DNA of 64,000 bases from positions 506,001 through 570,000 of the forward strand of contig NZ_JAUTBJ010000002.1 of assembly GCF_030819175.1 (NCBI RefSeq), read 5' to 3'. A program made the position numbers and the translations under genes. Below, piece by piece: positions 25,415 to 63,632 of the stretch. Below the pieces are notes generated by a model. That model searched no databases, had not been told where the DNA came from, and saw nothing but the letters and a program-made list of their open reading frames with translations. The stretch comes from Sphingomonas sp. SORGH_AS_0879 (GTDB taxonomy: Bacteria > Pseudomonadota > Alphaproteobacteria > Sphingomonadales > Sphingomonadaceae). How positions within the stretch are numbered: position 1 is the stretch's first letter; the number at the start of each line of letters is the position of its first letter.

Positions 25415-26568
25415 GGATTCCTTTGCGAAACGGCTCATTTGTGACAGAGGATCTGGGCGAGGCTTTCGCTGCAGGGATCCGGTACGGGCCTTGGTCAGCT
25501 TTGGCTGGCCGGTTTGGAGGGGCAGGATCGCTCCGGCTCAGCCAGCGGCAAGGATGGCGGCGCGTCTGAGATTGTAGATGGTGGCAAAGGCGAGGAAGTC
25601 TGCGGCGTTCCGCTCGATCGACAGGCATCTGGTGCGCGCCTTGCCGTAGAGGCGCTTCATGGCGCTGAAGACCGCCTCGACAGGGGCGCGCCGTCTGGCG
25701 ATGAGGTGGTTGCGCCGGGCCTGCCAGCGCGGCAGCTTTGGCATGTAGCGGTGCCGGCGATGCATGATGCGATCCTTGATCCCGGCCGCCTTCAGGGCCT
25801 TGCGACGCGCCTGGCCCTCATAGGCCCGGTCGGCATAGACCGCGCCTTCGTCGCCGCAGACCAGCGCGTCGGCCCGTTCGACATCCTGGACCCTGGCCGA
25901 GGTGAAGGCCAGCTTGCGGATCAGGCCCGAGCCCTCGTCCATGCCGATATGGAAGCGGTAGCCGAACACCGGCTTGCCGTCCTTGCGCGTCCAGTCGGCT
26001 CCCGGCTCCTGGGGGTGCGGATCACCCGGCGCGATCCCGTCCCCGCGCGGGGGCTTGCGGGTCGCCTTGACCACCGAGGCATCAAGGATCGTCCCCCGCC
26101 GCAGCACCAGCCCCTGCGCATCCAGCTGCCGGTTGATCTCGGCAAAGCAGCGCTCCAGCACGTCCCCCGCCGCCGCCGCCGCGCGAAACCGGCACAGCGT
26201 CGTCTCGTCCGGCGTGCCGCCATCCAGCGCAAAGCCGCAGAACCGCCGGAACGACAGCCGGTCGAGCAGCGCCTCCTCCAGCCCGGGGTCCGACAGATCA
26301 TACAACGCCTGCAGATACAGCGCCTTGACCATCGCCAGCGGCGCATAGGGCGGTCGACCCGTCCGACCCTGCCGCAGCGGCGACACCAGCGGCTCCAGCC
26401 GGCTCCAGTCGATCAGCCGCTCGATCCCCGACAGCTTCGCATTCGATCCCAAGCGCGGATCCATCAACGCTTCCACCAGCGATCGCTGCTCGACCATCAC
26501 CATGCCCTCCTGCCCGCACAGTGAATCACTCAACCATCCTCATTGCCAGCCGTTTCGCAGAGGAATCC
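25415..26568 (-). mobile_element. IS5-type insertion sequence, copy 1 (1154 bp)
   Basis: Terminal inverted repeats of 21 bases: GGATTCCTTTGCGAAACGGCT at the left and its complement with one mismatch at 26548-26568. The flanks carry the direct repeat TTTGCA (25409-25414 and 26569-26574), the presumed target duplication. If the IS is one base longer at each end, the duplication would be four bases (TTGC). It contains one transposase gene. It is nearly identical to the element at 55559-56712 and in the same orientation. It sits in the loop of a family B palindrome. Confidence 0.9.
25538..26533 (-). CDS. IS5-family DDE transposase (copy 1)
   Basis: A 331-residue transposase. The N-terminal DNA-binding region has GIERLIDWSRLEPLV, followed by GRPPYAPLAMVKALYLQ. 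The catalytic acidic residues are Asp in TILDASVV, Asp in VYADRAYEGQ and Glu in RAPVEAVFSAMKRLYGK (the Y-x2-R-x3-E-x6-K region). The protein is intact and, by comparison of the two translations, identical to copy 2. The transposition product should be functional. Confidence 0.93.
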   Translation of the reverse strand: MSDSLCGQEGMVMVEQRSLVEALMDPRLGSNAKLSGIERLIDWSRLEPLVSPLRQGRTGRPPYAPLAMVKALYLQALYDLSDPGLEEALLDRLSFRRFCGFALDGGTPDETTLCRFRAAAAAGDVLERCFAEINRQLDAQGLVLRRGTILDASVVKATRKPPRGDGIAPGDPHPQEPGADWTRKDGKPVFGYRFHIGMDEGSGLIRKLAFTSARVQDVERADALVCGDEGAVYADRAYEGQARRKALKAAGIKDRIMHRRHRYMPKLPRWQARRNHLIARRRAPVEAVFSAMKRLYGKARTRCLSIERNAADFLAFATIYNLRRAAILAAG

Positions 26569-50846: not shown

Positions 50847-52478
50847 ATGCGCCGTCTGGTCCTATTGTCCCTTCTGCTCTCGGGCACCGCCATCGCGCAG
50901 CAGCAGCCCGCCATTTCGGTCGATACGCTGAAGACGGTCACGCAAACCCTGTCCTCCGACGAATATGAAGGCCGAGCGCCCACCACCCCCGCCGAGGACA
51001 AGACGGTCGCGTACATCATCGACCGCTTCCAGAAGGCGGGGCTGAAACCCGGCAACAAGGGAAGCTGGACCCAGGACGTGCCGATGGTCGAGATCACCGC
51101 CACCGACGTTCAGCCCTTTACCGTCAAGGGCAAGGGCGCGCCGATCCCGCTCGCCTATCGCACCGACATGGTCGTCGGCACCTATCGCGTGACCCCGCGC
51201 ATCGACCTGACGACCAGCGAGATGGTCTTCGTCGGATACGGCATCACCGCGCCCGAAAAGGGCTGGGACGATTATGCCGGGGTCGATGTGCGTGGCAAGA
51301 CGGTGGTCATCCTGGTCAATGACGCCGACTGGCAGACCATGGGGCGCGAGGGCCCGTTCGAGGGGCGGGCGATGACCTGGTATGGCCGCTGGCCGTACAA
51401 GTTCGAGAATGCCGCCAAACATGGCGCCGCCGCCGCGCTGATCGTGCACCAGACCGAACCCGCGGCTTACCCCTGGGCGGTGGTGCAGTCGTCGTGGACC
51501 GGACCGCAACTCGAACTGGACGAGGCGGGCGACCATATGGACCAGAGCCAGATCATCGGCTGGCTGCAACAGGCGATGGCCGAGCGTATCCTGAAGGCGG
51601 CGGGCAAGGACCTCGCCACGCTGACCAAGGCGGCGCAGACCAAGGGGTTCAAGGCGGTGCCGCTGGGCCTGACCCTGTCGGGCGGCTTCACCAACGCGAT
51701 CCGGCGTCAGGCGTCGAAGAATGTCATCGGCCTGCTGCCCGGCACCACCGAGCCGGGGGATTATGTCCTCTATTCCGCGCATTGGGATCATCTGGGCCGC
51801 TGCGACGCGGTGGACGGCGACGATATCTGCAACGGCGCGCTCGACAATGCGAGCGGCGTGGCGGGCCTGGTCGCGCTGGCCGAGGCGCAGGCCAAGGCGG
51901 GGCCGGCGAAGCGCTCCATCGCCTTTCTGGCGGTAACGGCGGAGGAAAGCGGACTGCTTGGTTCTGGCTATTATGCGCAACATCCGGTGTTCCCGCTCGC
52001 CCGCACGGTCGGCGGGGTGAACATGGACGGGCTGAACGTCACCGGGCGCTCGAAGGACTTCGTTCTGGTCGGCAAGGGCAAGTCCGAGATCGAGGATCTG
52101 GCCAAGGGGCTGGTCGGCGCGCAAGGCCGCTATATCGGTGAGGAAGCGAACCCGGAGCGGGGCAGCTATTACCGGTCCGACCATTTCTCCTTCGCCAAAC
52201 AGGGGGTTCCGATGCTCGACGGCGGGTCGGGACAGGACAAGGTGATGGGCGGCGTCGCGGCGGGCAAGAAGGCGAGCGAGGACTATGTCGCGCACCGTTA
52301 TCACAAGCCCGCCGATGAATATGATCCCAACTGGGATTGGTCGGGCGCGGTCGAGGATTTGACGGTCTATTATCAATTGGGCAGGACGCTGGCGGACCGG
52401 CCGGGCCTGTGGCCCAACTGGTATCCCACCGCCGAATTTCGCGGTATTCGCGATCAAAGCAGGAAGAATGCCCAGTGA
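50847..52478 (+). CDS. M28-family zinc peptidase, exported
   Basis: A 543-residue protein with signal MRRLVLLSLLLSGTAIA, an inserted PA domain (about residues 120-260) and an M28 catalytic domain. Metal ligands are in SAHWDHLG (His, Asp), NGALDNASG (Asp), the catalytic Glu in TAEESGLLG, and later Asp and His (GGVNMDG, HRYHKPAD). It is probably a periplasmic aminopeptidase or glutaminyl-cyclase-like enzyme. Its stop overlaps the aguA start as GTGA. Confidence 0.9.
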   Translation: MRRLVLLSLLLSGTAIAQQQPAISVDTLKTVTQTLSSDEYEGRAPTTPAEDKTVAYIIDRFQKAGLKPGNKGSWTQDVPMVEITATDVQPFTVKGKGAPIPLAYRTDMVVGTYRVTPRIDLTTSEMVFVGYGITAPEKGWDDYAGVDVRGKTVVILVNDADWQTMGREGPFEGRAMTWYGRWPYKFENAAKHGAAAALIVHQTEPAAYPWAVVQSSWTGPQLELDEAGDHMDQSQIIGWLQQAMAERILKAAGKDLATLTKAAQTKGFKAVPLGLTLSGGFTNAIRRQASKNVIGLLPGTTEPGDYVLYSAHWDHLGRCDAVDGDDICNGALDNASGVAGLVALAEAQAKAGPAKRSIAFLAVTAEESGLLGSGYYAQHPVFPLARTVGGVNMDGLNVTGRSKDFVLVGKGKSEIEDLAKGLVGAQGRYIGEEANPERGSYYRSDHFSFAKQGVPMLDGGSGQDKVMGGVAAGKKASEDYVAHRYHKPADEYDPNWDWSGAVEDLTVYYQLGRTLADRPGLWPNWYPTAEFRGIRDQSRKNAQ

Positions 52479-53461
52479 CCACGATGCCCGTGACCACGCC
52501 TCCACCGCCCGAATGGGCCCGGCATGAGGCCGTATGGATCGGATTCCCCAGCCATCCGGAATTGTGGGAAGAGGATCTGGAGCCCGCACGCGCGGAGGTG
52601 CTGGCCTTTGCCCGCGCGGTGCATGCCGATGGCCGGGGCGAGCGGGTGATCCTGGTCGCCGCCGATGGCGAAGCCGCCGATGCGGCGCGCGCCATGGCGG
52701 GGGATGCCGCCGATGTGGTGGTGCAGCCCTTCGGCGACATCTGGCTGCGCGATACCGGGCCGATCGTCACCGGCGACGGCACGGCGCGGCTGTTCCGCTT
52801 CAACGGCTGGGGCGGGAAATACGACCTGCCCGGCGACGATACGGTCGGCGGGCGGCTGGCCGAGGATCGCGGGATCGCCGCGACGCGCTGCGACTGGGTG
52901 CTGGAGGGCGGCGCGATCGACGGGGACGGCACCGGACTGGTCGTCACCACGCGCCAGTGCCTGCTCAACCCCAATCGCAATCCCGAACTGACCGAGGAGG
53001 CGATCACCGCGCGGCTGGCGAAGGATCTGGGGCTGACCCGCGTGGTGTGGTTGGGGGACGGGCTGCTCAACGACCATACCGACGGGCATGTCGACAATCT
53101 GGCGCGCTTCGTCGGGCCGAACCGGATCGCGCTGCCGGAAGCGGCGGAGAATGATCCCAACTGGCAGGTCTATATGGTCGCCAAGCGCGACGCGATCGCC
53201 GCCGGGCTGGAGGTCGTGACCATCCCGTCGCCGGGCCGCGTGCTTCGCGACGAGGAGATCGTGCCCGCCAGCTATATGAACTTCTATATCGGCAATGCGG
53301 CGGTGGTCGTGCCCATCTATGGCAGCGAGAATGACGCGGCGGGCGTCGCGGCGATCCAGGCGATCTTCCCCGACCGCGAAGTGGTGGGCCTGCGCGCCGA
53401 TGCGATCCTGACCGGCGGCGGCAGCTTCCACTGTATCTCGCAGCAGATTCCGGCGCGGTGA
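52475..53461 (+). CDS. aguA: Agmatine deiminase
   Basis: A 328-residue guanidino-group hydrolase that converts agmatine to N-carbamoylputrescine. It has HEAVWIGFPSHPELW, GDIWLRDTGPI, FNGWGGKY, the catalytic His in DHTDGHVDN and the nucleophile Cys near the C-terminus in GGGSFHCISQQIP. The GTG at 52475 has an AGGAAG site at normal spacing and is coupled to the M28 gene; ATG 52484 is the alternative. With aguB it forms the agmatine route to putrescine. Confidence 0.94.
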   Translation: MTTMPVTTPPPPEWARHEAVWIGFPSHPELWEEDLEPARAEVLAFARAVHADGRGERVILVAADGEAADAARAMAGDAADVVVQPFGDIWLRDTGPIVTGDGTARLFRFNGWGGKYDLPGDDTVGGRLAEDRGIAATRCDWVLEGGAIDGDGTGLVVTTRQCLLNPNRNPELTEEAITARLAKDLGLTRVVWLGDGLLNDHTDGHVDNLARFVGPNRIALPEAAENDPNWQVYMVAKRDAIAAGLEVVTIPSPGRVLRDEEIVPASYMNFYIGNAAVVVPIYGSENDAAGVAAIQAIFPDREVVGLRADAILTGGGSFHCISQQIPAR

Positions 53462-54690: not shown

Positions 54691-55539
54691 ATGACCCAGA
54701 TCACCGTCGCCGCGCTGCAACTGGCCTTCACCGCCGATATCGACCGCAACATCGCCGAGGTCTCCCGCCTTGTCCGCGAGGCGGCGGCCAAAGGCGCGCA
54801 GGTGATCCTGCCGCCCGAACTGTTCGAGGGCGAGTATTTCTGCCGCGTCGAGGACGAAGGGCTGTTCAGCAATGCCAAGCCCACCGCCGAGCATAAGGCG
54901 GTGCTGGCGATGCAGGCACTCGCCGCCGAGTTGAAGGTCCACATCCCGACCAGCTTCTTCGAGGCGGACGGCCCGCACCACTATAACTCGCTGGCGATGA
55001 TCAATCCTGACGGCAAGGTCGCGGGGGTCTATCGCAAAAGCCATATCCCGGACGGTCCGGGATATGAGGAGAAATTCTACTTCCGCCCCGGCAATACCGG
55101 GTTCAAGGTGTGGGACGGCCCCGCGACCAAGCTGGGTGTCGGCATCTGCTGGGACCAATGGTATCCCGAGACGGCGCGCGCGATGATGCTGATGGGCGCG
55201 GAGATCCTGTTCTACCCCACTGCGATCGGCAGCGAGCCGCATGACGACAGCCTCGACACCGCGCGGCTGTGGCGGCGGGCGATGGTCGGCCATGCGGTGT
55301 CCAACGTCGTGCCGATCGTCGCGGCCAATCGGGTCGGCTGCGAACATGGCCAGACCTTTTACGGCACCAGCTTCATCTGCGACGAGCGTGGCGACATCCT
55401 GGCCGAACTGGGTCGCGAGGAAGAGGGCGCGATCGTCGCCACGCTCGATATCGACCGGGTGAAGCGCCACCGCGCGGCGTTCGGCTTCTTCCGCGACCGG
55501 CGGCCGGAACTCTACGGGCGGCTGGTGCAGGATATCTGA
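54691..55539 (+). CDS. aguB: N-carbamoylputrescine amidase
   Basis: A 282-residue nitrilase-fold amidase that turns N-carbamoylputrescine into putrescine. The Glu-Lys-Cys triad is in PELFEGEYFC (Glu), YRKSHIPDGPGYEEKFYF (Lys) and GVGICWDQWYPE (Cys). It is the partner of aguA, 1.2 kb upstream. IS copy 2 begins 20 bases after its stop. Confidence 0.94.
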   Translation: MTQITVAALQLAFTADIDRNIAEVSRLVREAAAKGAQVILPPELFEGEYFCRVEDEGLFSNAKPTAEHKAVLAMQALAAELKVHIPTSFFEADGPHHYNSLAMINPDGKVAGVYRKSHIPDGPGYEEKFYFRPGNTGFKVWDGPATKLGVGICWDQWYPETARAMMLMGAEILFYPTAIGSEPHDDSLDTARLWRRAMVGHAVSNVVPIVAANRVGCEHGQTFYGTSFICDERGDILAELGREEEGAIVATLDIDRVKRHRAAFGFFRDRRPELYGRLVQDI

Positions 55540-55558: not shown

Positions 55559-56712
55559 GGATTCCTCTGCGAAACGGCTCATTTGTGACAGAGGATCTGG
55601 GCGAGGCTTTCGCTGCAGGGATCCGGTACGGGCCTTGGTCAGCTTTGGCTGGCCGGTTTGGAGGGGCAGGATCGCCCCGGCTCAGCCAGCGGCAAGGATG
55701 GCGGCGCGTCTGAGATTGTAGATGGTGGCAAAGGCGAGGAAGTCTGCGGCGTTCCGCTCGATCGACAGGCATCTGGTGCGCGCCTTGCCGTAGAGGCGCT
55801 TCATGGCGCTGAAGACCGCCTCGACAGGGGCGCGCCGTCTGGCGATGAGGTGGTTGCGCCGGGCCTGCCAGCGCGGCAGCTTTGGCATGTAGCGGTGCCG
55901 GCGATGCATGATGCGATCCTTGATCCCGGCCGCCTTCAGGGCCTTGCGACGCGCCTGGCCCTCATAGGCCCGGTCGGCATAGACCGCGCCTTCGTCGCCG
56001 CAGACCAGCGCGTCGGCCCGTTCGACATCCTGGACCCTGGCCGAGGTGAAGGCCAGCTTGCGGATCAGGCCCGAGCCCTCGTCCATGCCGATATGGAAGC
56101 GGTAGCCGAACACCGGCTTGCCGTCCTTGCGCGTCCAGTCGGCACCCGGCTCCTGGGGGTGCGGATCACCCGGCGCGATCCCGTCCCCGCGCGGGGGCTT
56201 GCGGGTCGCCTTGACCACCGAGGCATCAAGGATCGTCCCCCGCCGCAGCACCAGCCCCTGCGCATCCAGCTGCCGGTTGATCTCGGCAAAGCAGCGCTCC
56301 AGCACGTCCCCCGCCGCCGCAGCCGCGCGAAACCGGCACAGCGTCGTCTCGTCCGGCGTGCCGCCATCCAGCGCAAAGCCGCAGAACCGCCGGAACGACA
56401 GCCGGTCGAGCAGCGCCTCCTCCAGCCCGGGGTCCGACAGATCATACAACGCCTGCAGATACAGCGCCTTGACCATCGCCAGCGGCGCATAGGGCGGTCG
56501 ACCCGTCCGACCCTGCCGCAGCGGCGACACCAGCGGCTCCAGCCGGCTCCAGTCGATCAGCCGCTCGATCCCCGACAGCTTCGCATTCGATCCCAAGCGC
56601 GGATCCATCAACGCTTCCACCAGCGATCGCTGCTCGACCATCACCATGCCCTCCTGCCCGCACAGTGAATCACTCAACCATCCTCATTGCCAGCCGTTTC
56701 GCAGAGGAATCC
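55559..56712 (-). mobile_element. IS5-type insertion sequence, copy 2 (1154 bp)
   Basis: The same length and orientation as copy 1, with perfect 21-base terminal repeats (GGATTCCTCTGCGAAACGGC T). It differs at only a few bases, for example in the left terminal repeat, and near 55675, 56144 and 56321. The flanks carry the direct repeat TTGCA (55554-55558 and 56713-56717). The restored target reads TTCCTTCCCTTGCAGGGGAG, a near palindrome. It separates the convergent aguB and uracil-DNA glycosylase genes. Confidence 0.9.
55682..56677 (-). CDS. IS5-family DDE transposase (copy 2)
   Basis: A 331-residue transposase, identical in translation to copy 1, with the same catalytic Asp-Asp-Glu set (TILDASVV, VYADRAYEGQ, RAPVEAVFSAMKRL). 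It is intact, so both elements may be active. Near-identity at the DNA level means the duplication is recent or homogenised. Confidence 0.93.
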   Translation of the reverse strand: MSDSLCGQEGMVMVEQRSLVEALMDPRLGSNAKLSGIERLIDWSRLEPLVSPLRQGRTGRPPYAPLAMVKALYLQALYDLSDPGLEEALLDRLSFRRFCGFALDGGTPDETTLCRFRAAAAAGDVLERCFAEINRQLDAQGLVLRRGTILDASVVKATRKPPRGDGIAPGDPHPQEPGADWTRKDGKPVFGYRFHIGMDEGSGLIRKLAFTSARVQDVERADALVCGDEGAVYADRAYEGQARRKALKAAGIKDRIMHRRHRYMPKLPRWQARRNHLIARRRAPVEAVFSAMKRLYGKARTRCLSIERNAADFLAFATIYNLRRAAILAAG

Positions 56713-59964: not shown

Positions 59965-60093
59965 TCGAGACGCCCGTGAAACAGGCCGGGGGGATAGCGG
60001 CACGACCGGGCGATCCGCGCATTCCCCTTGTGCTAACCCGTTCTTAAAGGCGAATATGGGACAGGCACGAACGTGTCCCAGGAAATGCGCCCC

Positions 60094-62574
60094 ATGGATT
60101 TTCCGCTCATCGCCCCGCGCCCGCCGCGGCTGTCCGAGCAGATCGACGGCCTGAAGCGGATCGAGCAATCCGGCCAGTTCAGCAATGGCGGGCCGGAGGT
60201 GCGTGCGCTGGAGGCGGAGATGGTGGCGCGGCTGTTCGAGGGTCGGGGGGCGGCGCTGGCGGTGGGCAATGCGACGCTGGGGCTGATGATCGCGATCCGG
60301 CAGGCGGCGGGGATGCATCCCCGCCCCGGCGACCTGGCGATGATGCCCGCCATGACCTTCGCCGCGACGGCGCAGGCCGCGATCTGGGCCGGGCTGACCC
60401 CGCTGGTCATCGATATCGATCCGCAGGACTGGACCGCCGATCCCGCCGAAGAGGAACGGATGCTGGCGCGCCATGGCGACCGGATCAGGGTGATCGTGCC
60501 CTATGCGACCTTCGGCACCGATCTGGACCTTGATCGCTATGCCTGGCTCGCCCGGCGTCACGGGGTGGGGATCGTCATCGATGCCGCCGCATCGCTGGGG
60601 ACGCTGGACGCCGTCGGACGCGGTTTCGGCGCGGGGGCTCCGTTCACCCTGGTCTATTCGATGCACGCGACCAAGACCTTCTCGGTGGGCGAGGGCGGGT
60701 TGATCTATAGCGGCGATGCCGACCGTATCGACCAGTTGCGTGCGATGGTGAATTTCGGTTTCGAATCCGGCCGCCATGCGACGCTGCCCGGCATCAACGG
60801 CAAGATGCCCGAGGTGCTGGCCCTGATGGCGCGGTGCAAGCTGACCGAGATCGATGCGATCTGCGACGCCCGCGCGGCGCTGGACCGGGAATATCGCGGC
60901 GCGCTGCCCGGATGGTCCTTTCAGCGTCAGACGGTCAGGCGGCAGGCGACCCAGTTCATGCCGGTGCTGTTGCCGCCCGAACTGGCCGGGCGGCGGGGCG
61001 AGGTCATCGCGGCCCTCGCCGGCGACGGGGTGGGCGCGGGCCAGTATTTCAGCCCGCATCTGGGCGAGCAGGCGCTGTTCCGCGAAACCGCGCTGATCGA
61101 ACCGACGCCGGTGGCCGATGCCCTGTCGGCCCGCATATTGAGCCTGCCGATCACCGATGCGATGAAGCGCGGCGATGCGCGGATCGTCGCCGGACGACTG
61201 ACGAGCGCCGTTGCGCGGATGTCCGCCGACGTGAGCGTCGAAAAGGTGCTAAGCCCGATCAACGCCGTGGTGATCGGCGGAGGACCCGCCGGGACCGCGA
61301 TGCTGACGGCGGCGAGCAAGAACGGCACGCTGGAGACGCTCGCGCAAGGGGGCCTGACCCTGGTCGAGCGGTCGCAGCATATCGGGCCGGGCGCGCTGGG
61401 CGGCTATGCCATCCGTTCCGATACGACCGCCGAAACCTTCTTGTCGGCGGTGAAGGACAATCCGCATCCCGAACTCGCCGCGCTGGAGGCGCATCCGGCG
61501 GGGCGGTTGATGGCAGGCTATTGCGGCGCGCTGGGCGCTCCGTTGCGTGACACCGCGCCGCTGCTGGCGGCGACGGCGGAGCGGTTGCGGACGATCGTCA
61601 CGGTACATGGCGGACAGGTGCTGACCGGCGTCGAAGCGGTCGGTGCGCAGCGGACGGCGGACGGCCATTGGCGGACGATCCTGTCGGGCCCGGATGGCGA
61701 GCACAGGCTCACCTCGCGCAGCATCGTCGTCGCGACGGGCGGCTATCAGAGCGACGAGCAGGTCGCGGCCAGGATCGTGGCGGGCGCGCCGCTGGGGCAG
61801 ATGGCGGGGGATCGGCTGATGCGATCGGACGCACTGCTCCGCCAGGGGGGGATGGCACAGGTGGTCAAGCGGCTGGCGTCGGTCCGGGCGCCGCGCATCG
61901 TGATCGTCGGAGCGTCCACCAGTGCGCTGGCCAGTGCCGTGCAATTGCTCAAATGCCATGATCTGCCGTTGGGCGCGGGGGCGATCACGTTGATGGTGCG
62001 CACCCCGCCCAAGCCGTTCTTTCCGACGGTCGACGCCGCCCGTCAGGAGGGTTTCACCGATTTCACCGCCGACGATGTCTGTCCGGTCAGTGGGTTCGTC
62101 CTGCGGCTCGCGGGGCTGCGGCTGGAGTCGCGCGAACTGGTGCTGCGGATGCTGTCGCTGGGCGGGCGGGAGCCCGATCCGCGCATGACCACCTATCGGA
62201 TCGTCGGGGAAGACGATCCCGAAGCGCGGGCGCTCATCGCCGAGGCCGATCTGGTCGTCGGCGCGCTCGGCTATCGTCCCCGGTCGCTGCCGCTGTTCGA
62301 TGCGGAGGGTGCGCCGATCGCGCTGGCGCATGAGGCGGGACGGCCGATGGTCGATCGCCATTGCCGCATCCTCGATGCGCAGGATCGCCCGGTGCCGGAC
62401 GCCTATGGCATCGGCCTGTCCGCCGGTTTCGTGCCCTGGGGCCCGCTCGGCGGGGAGAAGAGCTTTCGTGGTCAGGCCAACGGGCTGTGGCTGTGGCAGA
62501 ACAATGTCGGGCAGATGATCGTCGACCAGTTGCTGGGTCAGGCGATACCCGAATGCGACAGCGCGGCGGCATGA
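60094..62574 (+). CDS. DegT-type aminotransferase fused to a flavoprotein (FAD/NAD(P)) oxidoreductase
   Basis: An 826-residue two-enzyme fusion. Residues about 1-380 are a DegT/DnrJ/EryC1-type aminotransferase: SGQFSNGGPEVRALEAEM, NATLGLMIAI, cofactor Asp163 in VIDAAASLG and Schiff-base Lys194 in MHATKTFSVGEGGL. Residues about 388-826 are a two-Rossmann flavoprotein: GGGPAG at 395-400, the ATG motif in VVATGGYQ, a second dinucleotide motif VIVGASTSALASAV, and the closing VVGALGYRPRS. The layout resembles N-hydroxylating class B monooxygenases or NAD_binding_9 proteins. The ATG at 60094 has AGGAA at good spacing (GTG 60073 also open). It is coupled by ATGA to a glycosyltransferase. It could aminate and then oxidise a nucleotide sugar; this is inference. 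Confidence 0.82.
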   Translation: MDFPLIAPRPPRLSEQIDGLKRIEQSGQFSNGGPEVRALEAEMVARLFEGRGAALAVGNATLGLMIAIRQAAGMHPRPGDLAMMPAMTFAATAQAAIWAGLTPLVIDIDPQDWTADPAEEERMLARHGDRIRVIVPYATFGTDLDLDRYAWLARRHGVGIVIDAAASLGTLDAVGRGFGAGAPFTLVYSMHATKTFSVGEGGLIYSGDADRIDQLRAMVNFGFESGRHATLPGINGKMPEVLALMARCKLTEIDAICDARAALDREYRGALPGWSFQRQTVRRQATQFMPVLLPPELAGRRGEVIAALAGDGVGAGQYFSPHLGEQALFRETALIEPTPVADALSARILSLPITDAMKRGDARIVAGRLTSAVARMSADVSVEKVLSPINAVVIGGGPAGTAMLTAASKNGTLETLAQGGLTLVERSQHIGPGALGGYAIRSDTTAETFLSAVKDNPHPELAALEAHPAGRLMAGYCGALGAPLRDTAPLLAATAERLRTIVTVHGGQVLTGVEAVGAQRTADGHWRTILSGPDGEHRLTSRSIVVATGGYQSDEQVAARIVAGAPLGQMAGDRLMRSDALLRQGGMAQVVKRLASVRAPRIVIVGASTSALASAVQLLKCHDLPLGAGAITLMVRTPPKPFFPTVDAARQEGFTDFTADDVCPVSGFVLRLAGLRLESRELVLRMLSLGGREPDPRMTTYRIVGEDDPEARALIAEADLVVGALGYRPRSLPLFDAEGAPIALAHEAGRPMVDRHCRILDAQDRPVPDAYGIGLSAGFVPWGPLGGEKSFRGQANGLWLWQNNVGQMIVDQLLGQAIPECDSAAA

Positions 62575-63632
62575 GCGATCCTGTCGTCAGCCCTGTCGTC
62601 AGCGTGGTCATCCCGGCCTATAACGGCGCCGGGCTGATCGGCGAGACGCTGGCGAGCCTGGGCGACCAGACGATGACCGAATGGGAGGCGCTGGTGGTCG
62701 ATGACTGCTCGTCCGACCATACCCGTGAACTGGTACGCAACTGGCCCGACACCCGAGTCCGCCTGATCGAGAATGCGGTCAATGGCGGCCCCGTGGTCAC
62801 GCGCAATCGCGGCTTCGCCGAGGCGCGGGGGCGGTATCTGGCGGGGCTCGACCAGGACGATCTCTGCCGCCCCGAAAGGCTGGCGCGGCAGGTCGCCTAT
62901 CTGGAGGCGAACCCCGATGTCGTGCTGGTGGGCGCGCAGACCGAGCAGTTGGTCGAGGGGCGGGTTCTGCCCATGAACTATGCGGCACACAGCACGCCCG
63001 ACCTGATCCGCTGGCTGAGCTGGATCGAAAATCCGCTGGCCTGGTCGACGGTCATGGTGCGCGCGGATGTGGCGAGGCGGCTCGATCCGTTCACCCGGCC
63101 CGAGCTTCTCTATGCGGAGGACTTCGACCTCTATCACCGCATCGCCGCCTTCGGTCGGATCGCCCGGCTGGACGAGCCCCTGCTCCTCTATCGCCAGCAT
63201 GCGGGCGGCGTGTCGAAAAGGTTTATCGAGAAAATGCGGGCCAGTGCGACGCGGGTCGTGACGGAGGCGCATGCGCCGCTGCTGGGCGATGCCGCGTCGG
63301 AGGTCGCCCATCTGCTCGTCCGGCACAATATGGGCGGGGTGCCGATTCCCGATGGCGCGACGCTTCGGCGGCTGGGACAGGCGATCGCGACGTTGCAGAG
63401 CGCCTATCTGGCGCAGGTCGCCCCCGATATCGAGAGCGTGAAACTGATCCGCTGGGAAACCGCGCGGCGTTGGCGGCAATTGGCGCGGGCGGCCCTTCGC
63501 TCGGGTCGCGTGACGCTGGGCGATGTGTTCGCCTCACGCCCCCCGCATATGGGACTGGGCTATGCCGGGGTGGAGGACTTGCTGGGGTGGCGGATGATCG
63601 GGCTGGCGCGTCGCCTGGGACAAAATCGGTGA
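62571..63632 (+). CDS. Family 2 glycosyltransferase
   Basis: A 353-residue GT-A-fold transferase. It starts PVVSVVIPAYNGAGLIGETL, has VVDDCSSDHTRELV (nucleotide site), the DxD-type LAGLDQDDLCRPERLA and a downstream AEDFDLYHRIAAFG. The C-terminal 120 residues are helical and specific. No membrane helix is evident, so it is cytoplasmic or peripheral. The ATG overlaps the fusion gene's stop (ATGA), so the two proteins are made together, and the fusion's product may be its donor sugar. Confidence 0.9.
   Translation: MSDPVVSPVVSVVIPAYNGAGLIGETLASLGDQTMTEWEALVVDDCSSDHTRELVRNWPDTRVRLIENAVNGGPVVTRNRGFAEARGRYLAGLDQDDLCRPERLARQVAYLEANPDVVLVGAQTEQLVEGRVLPMNYAAHSTPDLIRWLSWIENPLAWSTVMVRADVARRLDPFTRPELLYAEDFDLYHRIAAFGRIARLDEPLLLYRQHAGGVSKRFIEKMRASATRVVTEAHAPLLGDAASEVAHLLVRHNMGGVPIPDGATLRRLGQAIATLQSAYLAQVAPDIESVKLIRWETARRWRQLARAALRSGRVTLGDVFASRPPHMGLGYAGVEDLLGWRMIGLARRLGQNR

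Follow-up and report, generated by a model that had tools for sequence, protein, structure and literature searches.

A fused aminotransferase-flavoprotein gene coupled to a glycosyltransferase gene in Sphingomonas: a candidate two-step route to N-oxidised sugars

Two-enzyme routes in which an activated sugar is aminated and the new nitrogen is then oxidised are known from antibiotics, using either CalS13 with a cytochrome P450 or a nitrososynthase, and to our knowledge N-oxidised sugars are known only from a few such compounds. In calicheamicin biosynthesis the DegT-family enzyme CalS13 aminates dTDP-4-keto-6-deoxyglucose and CalE10 then N-hydroxylates the amino sugar nucleotide, the DnmZ/ORF36-type nitrososynthases oxidise dTDP-amino sugars in a flavin-dependent reaction on an acyl-CoA-dehydrogenase fold, and dTDP-4-amino-4,6-dideoxyglucose is the product of DesI. 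Here we describe a gene from Sphingomonas sp. SORGH_AS_0879 (contig NZ_JAUTBJ010000002.1, positions 506,001 to 570,000; this whole stretch of 64,000 nucleotides is called the window, and positions are counted within it) in which a DegT aminotransferase and a flavoprotein form one chain, and which overlaps a family 2 glycosyltransferase (GT2) gene. The literature searched, with most subscription journals outside the search, contained no description of a class-B-like flavoprotein that carries out such an oxidation while fused to an aminotransferase, and no matching system among reports on N-oxidised sugars or on N-hydroxylases acting with nucleotide sugars. The features of the locus are as follows.

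60094..62574, + strand, fused DegT aminotransferase and FAD/NAD(P)H flavoprotein gene, 826 amino acids (aa) (open reading frame (ORF), Pfam and homologue matches)
60136..61197, + strand, DegT/DnrJ/EryC1/StrS aminotransferase domain, residues 15-368 (Pfam, E 1.5e-58)
60580..60582, + strand, Asp163 codon (alignment; window translation)
60673..60675, + strand, Lys194 codon (alignment; window translation)
61255..62550, + strand, two-Rossmann flavoprotein domain, about residues 388-819 (Pfam, AlphaFold2, Foldseek)
61276..61293, + strand, FAD-binding motif GGGPAG, residues 395-400 (window translation)
61909..61926, + strand, second dinucleotide motif GASTSA, residues 606-611, putative NADPH site (alignments, translation)
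62074..62121, + strand, family signature, residues 661-676 (alignments, translation)
62248..62274, + strand, DLVVGALGY, residues 719-727, where N-hydroxylases have their ATGY motif (window translation)
62571..63632, + strand, GT2 glycosyltransferase gene, 353 aa (Pfam; start overlaps the stop of the fusion)

The frame of the fusion is open to the TGA at 62574 from either the ATG at 60094 (826 aa) or an alternative GTG at 60073 (833 aa), and the open frame and the Pfam domains agree with the initial annotation, which had read one 826-residue chain of a DegT aminotransferase and a two-Rossmann flavoprotein. The GT2 start (ATG, 62571) and the fusion stop share the sequence ATGA, so that the overlap proposed there is confirmed from the coordinates, and the GT2 protein matches Glycos_transf_2 (PF00535) with 108.7 bits against a cut-off of 23.3 (E 3.9e-31). 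When the best 80 of 204 loci from named genomes were classified using tblastn and ORFs, 58 contained the same DegT-FAD fusion, and in 56 of these a GT2 gene with the same orientation lay no more than 100 bases away. The coupling to a glycosyltransferase is conserved, and the two genes are probably co-transcribed. An [AGT]TGA ending terminates 84 of 86 fused ORFs, although this ending alone is no proof of a four-base overlap. Both halves were found in 54 of 91 genomes of the same genus, and 51 of these have an uninterrupted frame across both; in the other three the frame is broken within the DegT half (G068) or the halves lie on two contigs (G007 and G082), while one genome (G018) retains just a 102-aa C-terminal remnant of the fusion (L039:10043-10351), where the locus was apparently lost. 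S. melonis TY carries a copy with 68% identity. When 59 genomes belonging to the other families of the order were searched, the best match was to the DegT half only (E 1.7e-40, among the matches listed), and the flavoprotein half was rare in wider samples, being found at E 1e-40 in 6/385 class-wide and 12/398 phylum-wide genomes (window genome included; at most four candidates scored per genome).

The remaining loci among the 80 comprise two fusions in the reverse order (FAD-DegT), 17 adjacent gene pairs (10 with DegT first, 7 with FAD first), a frame-broken DegT-FAD fusion in S. yabuuchiae (L106), a FAD gene in Kushneria with just a DegT gene of another clade 3.6 kb away (L058), and a FAD gene without any DegT gene in Belnapia (L114). 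A third reverse fusion is present on plasmid pACIX904 of Granulicella tundricola, where a glycosyltransferase gene follows two bases downstream and the surrounding genes encode Wzz, export and sugar transferase functions. As the two orders are opposite, at least two fusions must have taken place, and fusion in both orders suggests that the halves serve one pathway. In both phylogenetic trees (36 rows for the flavoprotein and 35 for DegT, with 15 of the 58 fused loci; L047 and L106 were left out, as was L114 from the DegT tree) the reverse fusions require two label changes, and they are most simply read as two events separate from the sphingomonad one, with fission as another option. The divergence of the two halves is correlated across 18 separate or reverse-fused pairs, from which L058 was left out (r 0.57, with none of 2000 permutations as high). 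Judged from such sequence comparisons, namely adjacency in either order, fusion in both orders and correlated divergence, the halves almost certainly belong to a single pathway. Two separate joining events are the minimum and three the simplest reading, with both orders represented, and for this reason the pairing offers a strong and inexpensive lead to the substrate. Genes around these loci were called with a simple gene caller, and some loci were mis-called. A neighbour with an EYD motif and a length of about 300 aa recurs in 9 of the 25 loci that were clustered (L043:6446-7321, L045:12836-13780, L044:6015-6917 and L049:20600-21316 are examples), and the copy in L042 (5765-6679) was added afterwards; two members were scanned and had no Pfam match, and it may be an undescribed glycosyltransferase-like family.

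The DegT half has the sequence characteristics of an aminotransferase, matching PF01041 over the whole domain with 199.2 bits (cut-off 19.8). Lys194 and Asp163 are present as first annotated, and neither varies in any of the 51 aligned rows, one of which is that of the window; by family these would be the Schiff-base lysine and the aspartate at the pyridine of pyridoxal phosphate (PLP), respectively, and the dehydratases of the DegT family have a histidine in place of this lysine. In a PDB search with a 14-row profile the nearest structure was 3ju7 (E 2.2e-99), followed by 2po3 (E 2.6e-57), which is listed as a '4-dehydrase' and is presumably DesI. DesI is also the closest NCBIfam model, and the score of 153.1 bits is well below the 650-bit cut-off of the DesI equivalog TIGR04427.

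The flavoprotein half was modelled with confidence using AlphaFold2 (mean pLDDT 93.3) and contains two dinucleotide-binding folds; binding of FAD and NAD(P)H is predicted from their motifs, with GGGPAG for FAD and GASTSA as the probable NADPH site. The model of the full-length chain has a pTM of 0.52 (pLDDT 87), so that its arrangement of the two halves is tentative. The initial annotation had placed the flavoprotein with the N-hydroxylase/NAD_binding_9 kind: the NAD_binding_9 label fell away, as this match lies under its cut-off (E 0.12) and the Pfam family over its cut-off is Pyr_redox_2 (residues 391-621, E 1.6e-7), while the likeness to class B N-hydroxylases held for the fold in Foldseek and was less clear in VIA-align. 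The five best Foldseek rows were EtcB, putrescine N-hydroxylase (two chains), DiatB and SidA (E 4.5e-12 to 1.4e-11, TM about 0.5), of which four are amine N-hydroxylases, whereas VIA-align ranked flavin-containing monooxygenases and YpdA above the N-hydroxylases. A phmmer search of PDB sequences with the single flavoprotein-half sequence gave no match, and a profile search gave weak and partial ones; PF13434 (Lys_Orn_oxgnase) has no match in the window protein, but matches 8/69 and 4/16 family members at E 0.01. The DLVVGALGY sequence lies where N-hydroxylases carry their D...ATGY motif, and the family has a signature of its own, with D661, C663, R671, G674 and the nearly invariant R676 retained in 16 rows down to 22% identity.

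Our preferred reading, which we put at about even chances, is a bifunctional enzyme with amination by the DegT half and N-oxidation of the resulting amine by the flavoprotein half, followed by transfer of the product by the GT2. In this reaction sequence a keto group on an activated, most likely nucleotide-linked sugar would be transaminated to a primary amine, which the flavoprotein half, as an NADPH- and FAD-dependent monooxygenase of class B type, would convert to a hydroxylamine, possibly with further oxidation to an oxime, nitroso or nitro group, after which the GT2 would transfer the N-oxidised sugar to a cell-surface glycan as the likely acceptor.

More distant homologues of the flavoprotein, which provide the strongest clue, were compared in nine further loci (L136-L143 and L146; L144 and L145 duplicate L052 and L043) and in five plasmid loci (L147-L151, out of eight non-Sphingomonas plasmid records). 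A PLP enzyme is beside or fused to the flavoprotein homologue in 12 of these 14 loci (7/9 and 5/5, respectively), with one gene in between on plasmid pBM700, and no PLP enzyme in view in L140 and L142. The partner is a DegT enzyme of the same clade as that of the window in L143, a DegT in a reverse-order fusion in L148, a CBS-DegT in L136 and L137, and a DesI-like DegT in L138, L139, L141 and L146, with Wzc-like and flippase genes nearby, and WbqC genes as well in two of them. On the Priestia, Erwinia and Rahnella plasmids the partner is a fused protein of a nucleotidyltransferase and a class I/II PLP enzyme, and those of Priestia and Erwinia score best to a CobD-type decarboxylase; in Shinella it is a Cys/Met-type PLP enzyme in a non-ribosomal peptide synthetase cluster; two Shinella records annotate the flavoprotein homologue as SidA/IucD/PvdA family. 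The common feature is a PLP enzyme, mostly one predicted to make an amine. On Priestia megaterium pBM700 (L147:7563-15667) the set consists of two ATP-grasp genes, the flavoprotein homologue, an AAC(3)-type acetyltransferase, the nucleotidyltransferase-PLP gene and DXR, and is possibly a cluster for a DXR-inhibitor-like compound; its acetyltransferase, nucleotidyltransferase-PLP and DXR genes resemble the FR-900098 genes. Erwinia rhapontici (L149:9968-20960) and Rahnella sikkimica (L150:9968-20875) have very similar plasmid clusters, with the flavoprotein homologue, nucleotidyltransferase-PLP, CDP-alcohol phosphatidyltransferase, HAD proteins and ATP-grasp.

With regard to the substrate, a dTDP sugar is supported by DesI as nearest named model, RmlA and RmlB among the neighbours, and a higher frequency of RmlB in carriers. 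In Methylobacterium an RmlA gene is directly downstream of the flavoprotein gene, and in Kushneria, whose flavoprotein nests among the sphingomonad ones in the tree, the flavoprotein gene is followed by a GT2-like gene, RmlB, RmlA and a DesI-like DegT, with the rmlA gene (L058:14055-14925) being frame-broken in this record. RmlB is more common in carriers of the fusion, with 50/54 versus 22/37 of the non-carriers (Fisher p 2e-4), and with 45/49 versus 21/32 at completeness of at least 90 (p 0.007), both uncorrected for ancestry. There was no association with gmd (p 0.52), and GDP-4-keto-6-deoxymannose was dismissed as donor. Four of the 54 carriers (G006, G034, G065 and G081) have no RmlB over the cut-off, and dTDP-4-keto-6-deoxyglucose was dismissed as a universal donor for that reason. 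G006, G034 and G065 have no RmlB, Gmd or PF02719 match, with CDP-glucose 4,6-dehydratase not searched by a model of its own, and two near-complete carriers without RmlB, Gmd or a PF02719-type dehydratase count against a dTDP-4-keto-6-deoxyhexose as substrate. Of the four extended short-chain dehydrogenase/reductase matches classified in G034 and G065, two were GalE, and the others were an HpnA-like and a weak RmlB-like protein. A different keto sugar (e.g. a 3-keto sugar) may therefore be the substrate, or else the copies in these carriers may be idle. Nothing was found in favour of the small alcohol that had been proposed as an alternative to a sugar.

A rival reading has the two steps in the opposite order. 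If the flavoprotein acted first, oxidising an alcohol of the sugar or sugar nucleotide to a ketone for amination by DegT, C-OH would become C-NH2 with no separate dehydratase or dehydrogenase, which would explain how G034 and G065 manage without a 4,6-dehydratase of the kinds searched, as well as the joining of the halves in either order. We nevertheless consider this unlikely, as the best Foldseek rows are mostly amine N-hydroxylases (4/5), sugar-nucleotide genes accompany the flavoprotein in Kushneria (RmlB and a broken RmlA) and Methylobacterium (RmlA), and the CobD-type decarboxylase resembled by the Priestia and Erwinia partners needs no ketone. Oxygenation of another atom of the same activated sugar, either at carbon or of the Baeyer-Villiger or aldehyde type, is likewise improbable, since it is a PLP enzyme which forms the shared context of the further homologues (12/14 loci). 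The Pfam label Pyr_redox_2, together with YpdA and thioredoxin reductases among the VIA-align matches, would fit a reductase, or a partner without catalytic activity, whose role is to maintain the aminotransferase or a carrier in the reduced state, but the cysteines of the flavoprotein half (477, 621, 663, 757 and 821) include no CxxC pair, which led us to dismiss a plain disulfide reductase of the thioredoxin-reductase type, and the additional signature conserved around Cys663 points to a site for substrate, making this role very unlikely. Finally, the chance that the fusion is a product of misassembly or a frameshift error, or a gene in decay, is negligible despite the few broken copies (the frame break in S. 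yabuuchiae DSM 14562, seen as L106 and G068, and the remnant in G018), this being ruled out as a general explanation by the intact single frame in 51/91 genus genomes, the joining of the same halves in other lineages including Acidobacteria, and the finding that unfused halves, instead of having unrelated neighbours, adjoin each other in 17/80 loci.

The contig beyond the window continues with look-alikes (by eye) of a PAP2 phosphatase, a CoA ester lyase and galE, and hence the unit appears to consist of two genes; the identical order of these three genes is annotated on a Sphingomonas parapaucimobilis plasmid. Elsewhere in the window, a transposase-like ORF of 331 aa (by eye) is present in two copies with 99.8% identity (25538-26533 and 55682-56677, both on the - strand), with the identity extending just 5 bases past one end of the ORF and 37 past the opposite end. 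The ORFs at 52475-53461 and 54691-55539 look by eye like an agmatine deiminase and a nitrilase-type N-carbamoylputrescine amidase, a probable putrescine route.

Amination followed by N-oxidation may extend beyond this locus. We think it possible, if somewhat short of an even chance, that an undescribed flavoprotein family pairs with amine-making PLP enzymes on nucleotide-activated substrates, having been joined to an aminotransferase at least twice and in both orders. Its products, in Sphingomonas as well as in the polysaccharide clusters of groups such as Acetobacteraceae and Acidobacteria, would be sugars with a hydroxylamino, oxime or nitro group. If so, many ordinary soil and plant bacteria would bear N-oxidised sugars in their surface glycans. 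Such residues would be common in sphingomonads and beyond, where metal binding or reactions with the defences of a host are conceivable, and the single protein could act as a two-step biocatalyst.

Compared with the described systems, the window protein would share its two-step logic with CalS13 and CalE10, and CalS13 (4zas) is among the PDB matches of the DegT half, but CalE10 is a cytochrome P450 and not a flavoprotein, and the two are not fused. The flavin-dependent oxidation of an amino sugar proposed here has a counterpart in the DnmZ/ORF36 nitrososynthases, although no acyl-CoA-dehydrogenase domain as in DnmZ was matched by Pfam in the window protein at E values up to 1. DesI and 3ju7, the latter an uncharacterised DegT structure, are the nearest relatives of the DegT half among NCBIfam models and PDB structures, and differ in that the window protein bears a fused flavoprotein and scores far under the DesI cut-off. 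With the class B N-hydroxylases (SidA, PvdA, KtzI, EtcB and putrescine N-hydroxylase) the flavoprotein half shares the two dinucleotide motifs and a similar predicted fold, and it has ALGY where they carry ATGY, whereas identity reaches at most 20% in the structure list, and phmmer and PF13434 found no match. A last parallel is FrbG of the FR-900098 pathway: no FrbG chain was recognised in the comparison set, in which its presence was not established, but a remote homologue of the window flavoprotein sits in the pBM700 gene set, which resembles the FR-900098 genes. According to a review, FrbG hydroxylates an aminopropylphosphonate within its CMP conjugate, with CMP being crucial for its specificity (PMC7347517). 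It acts on an amine carried by a nucleotide, as the window flavoprotein would, but its substrate is a phosphonate and not a sugar.

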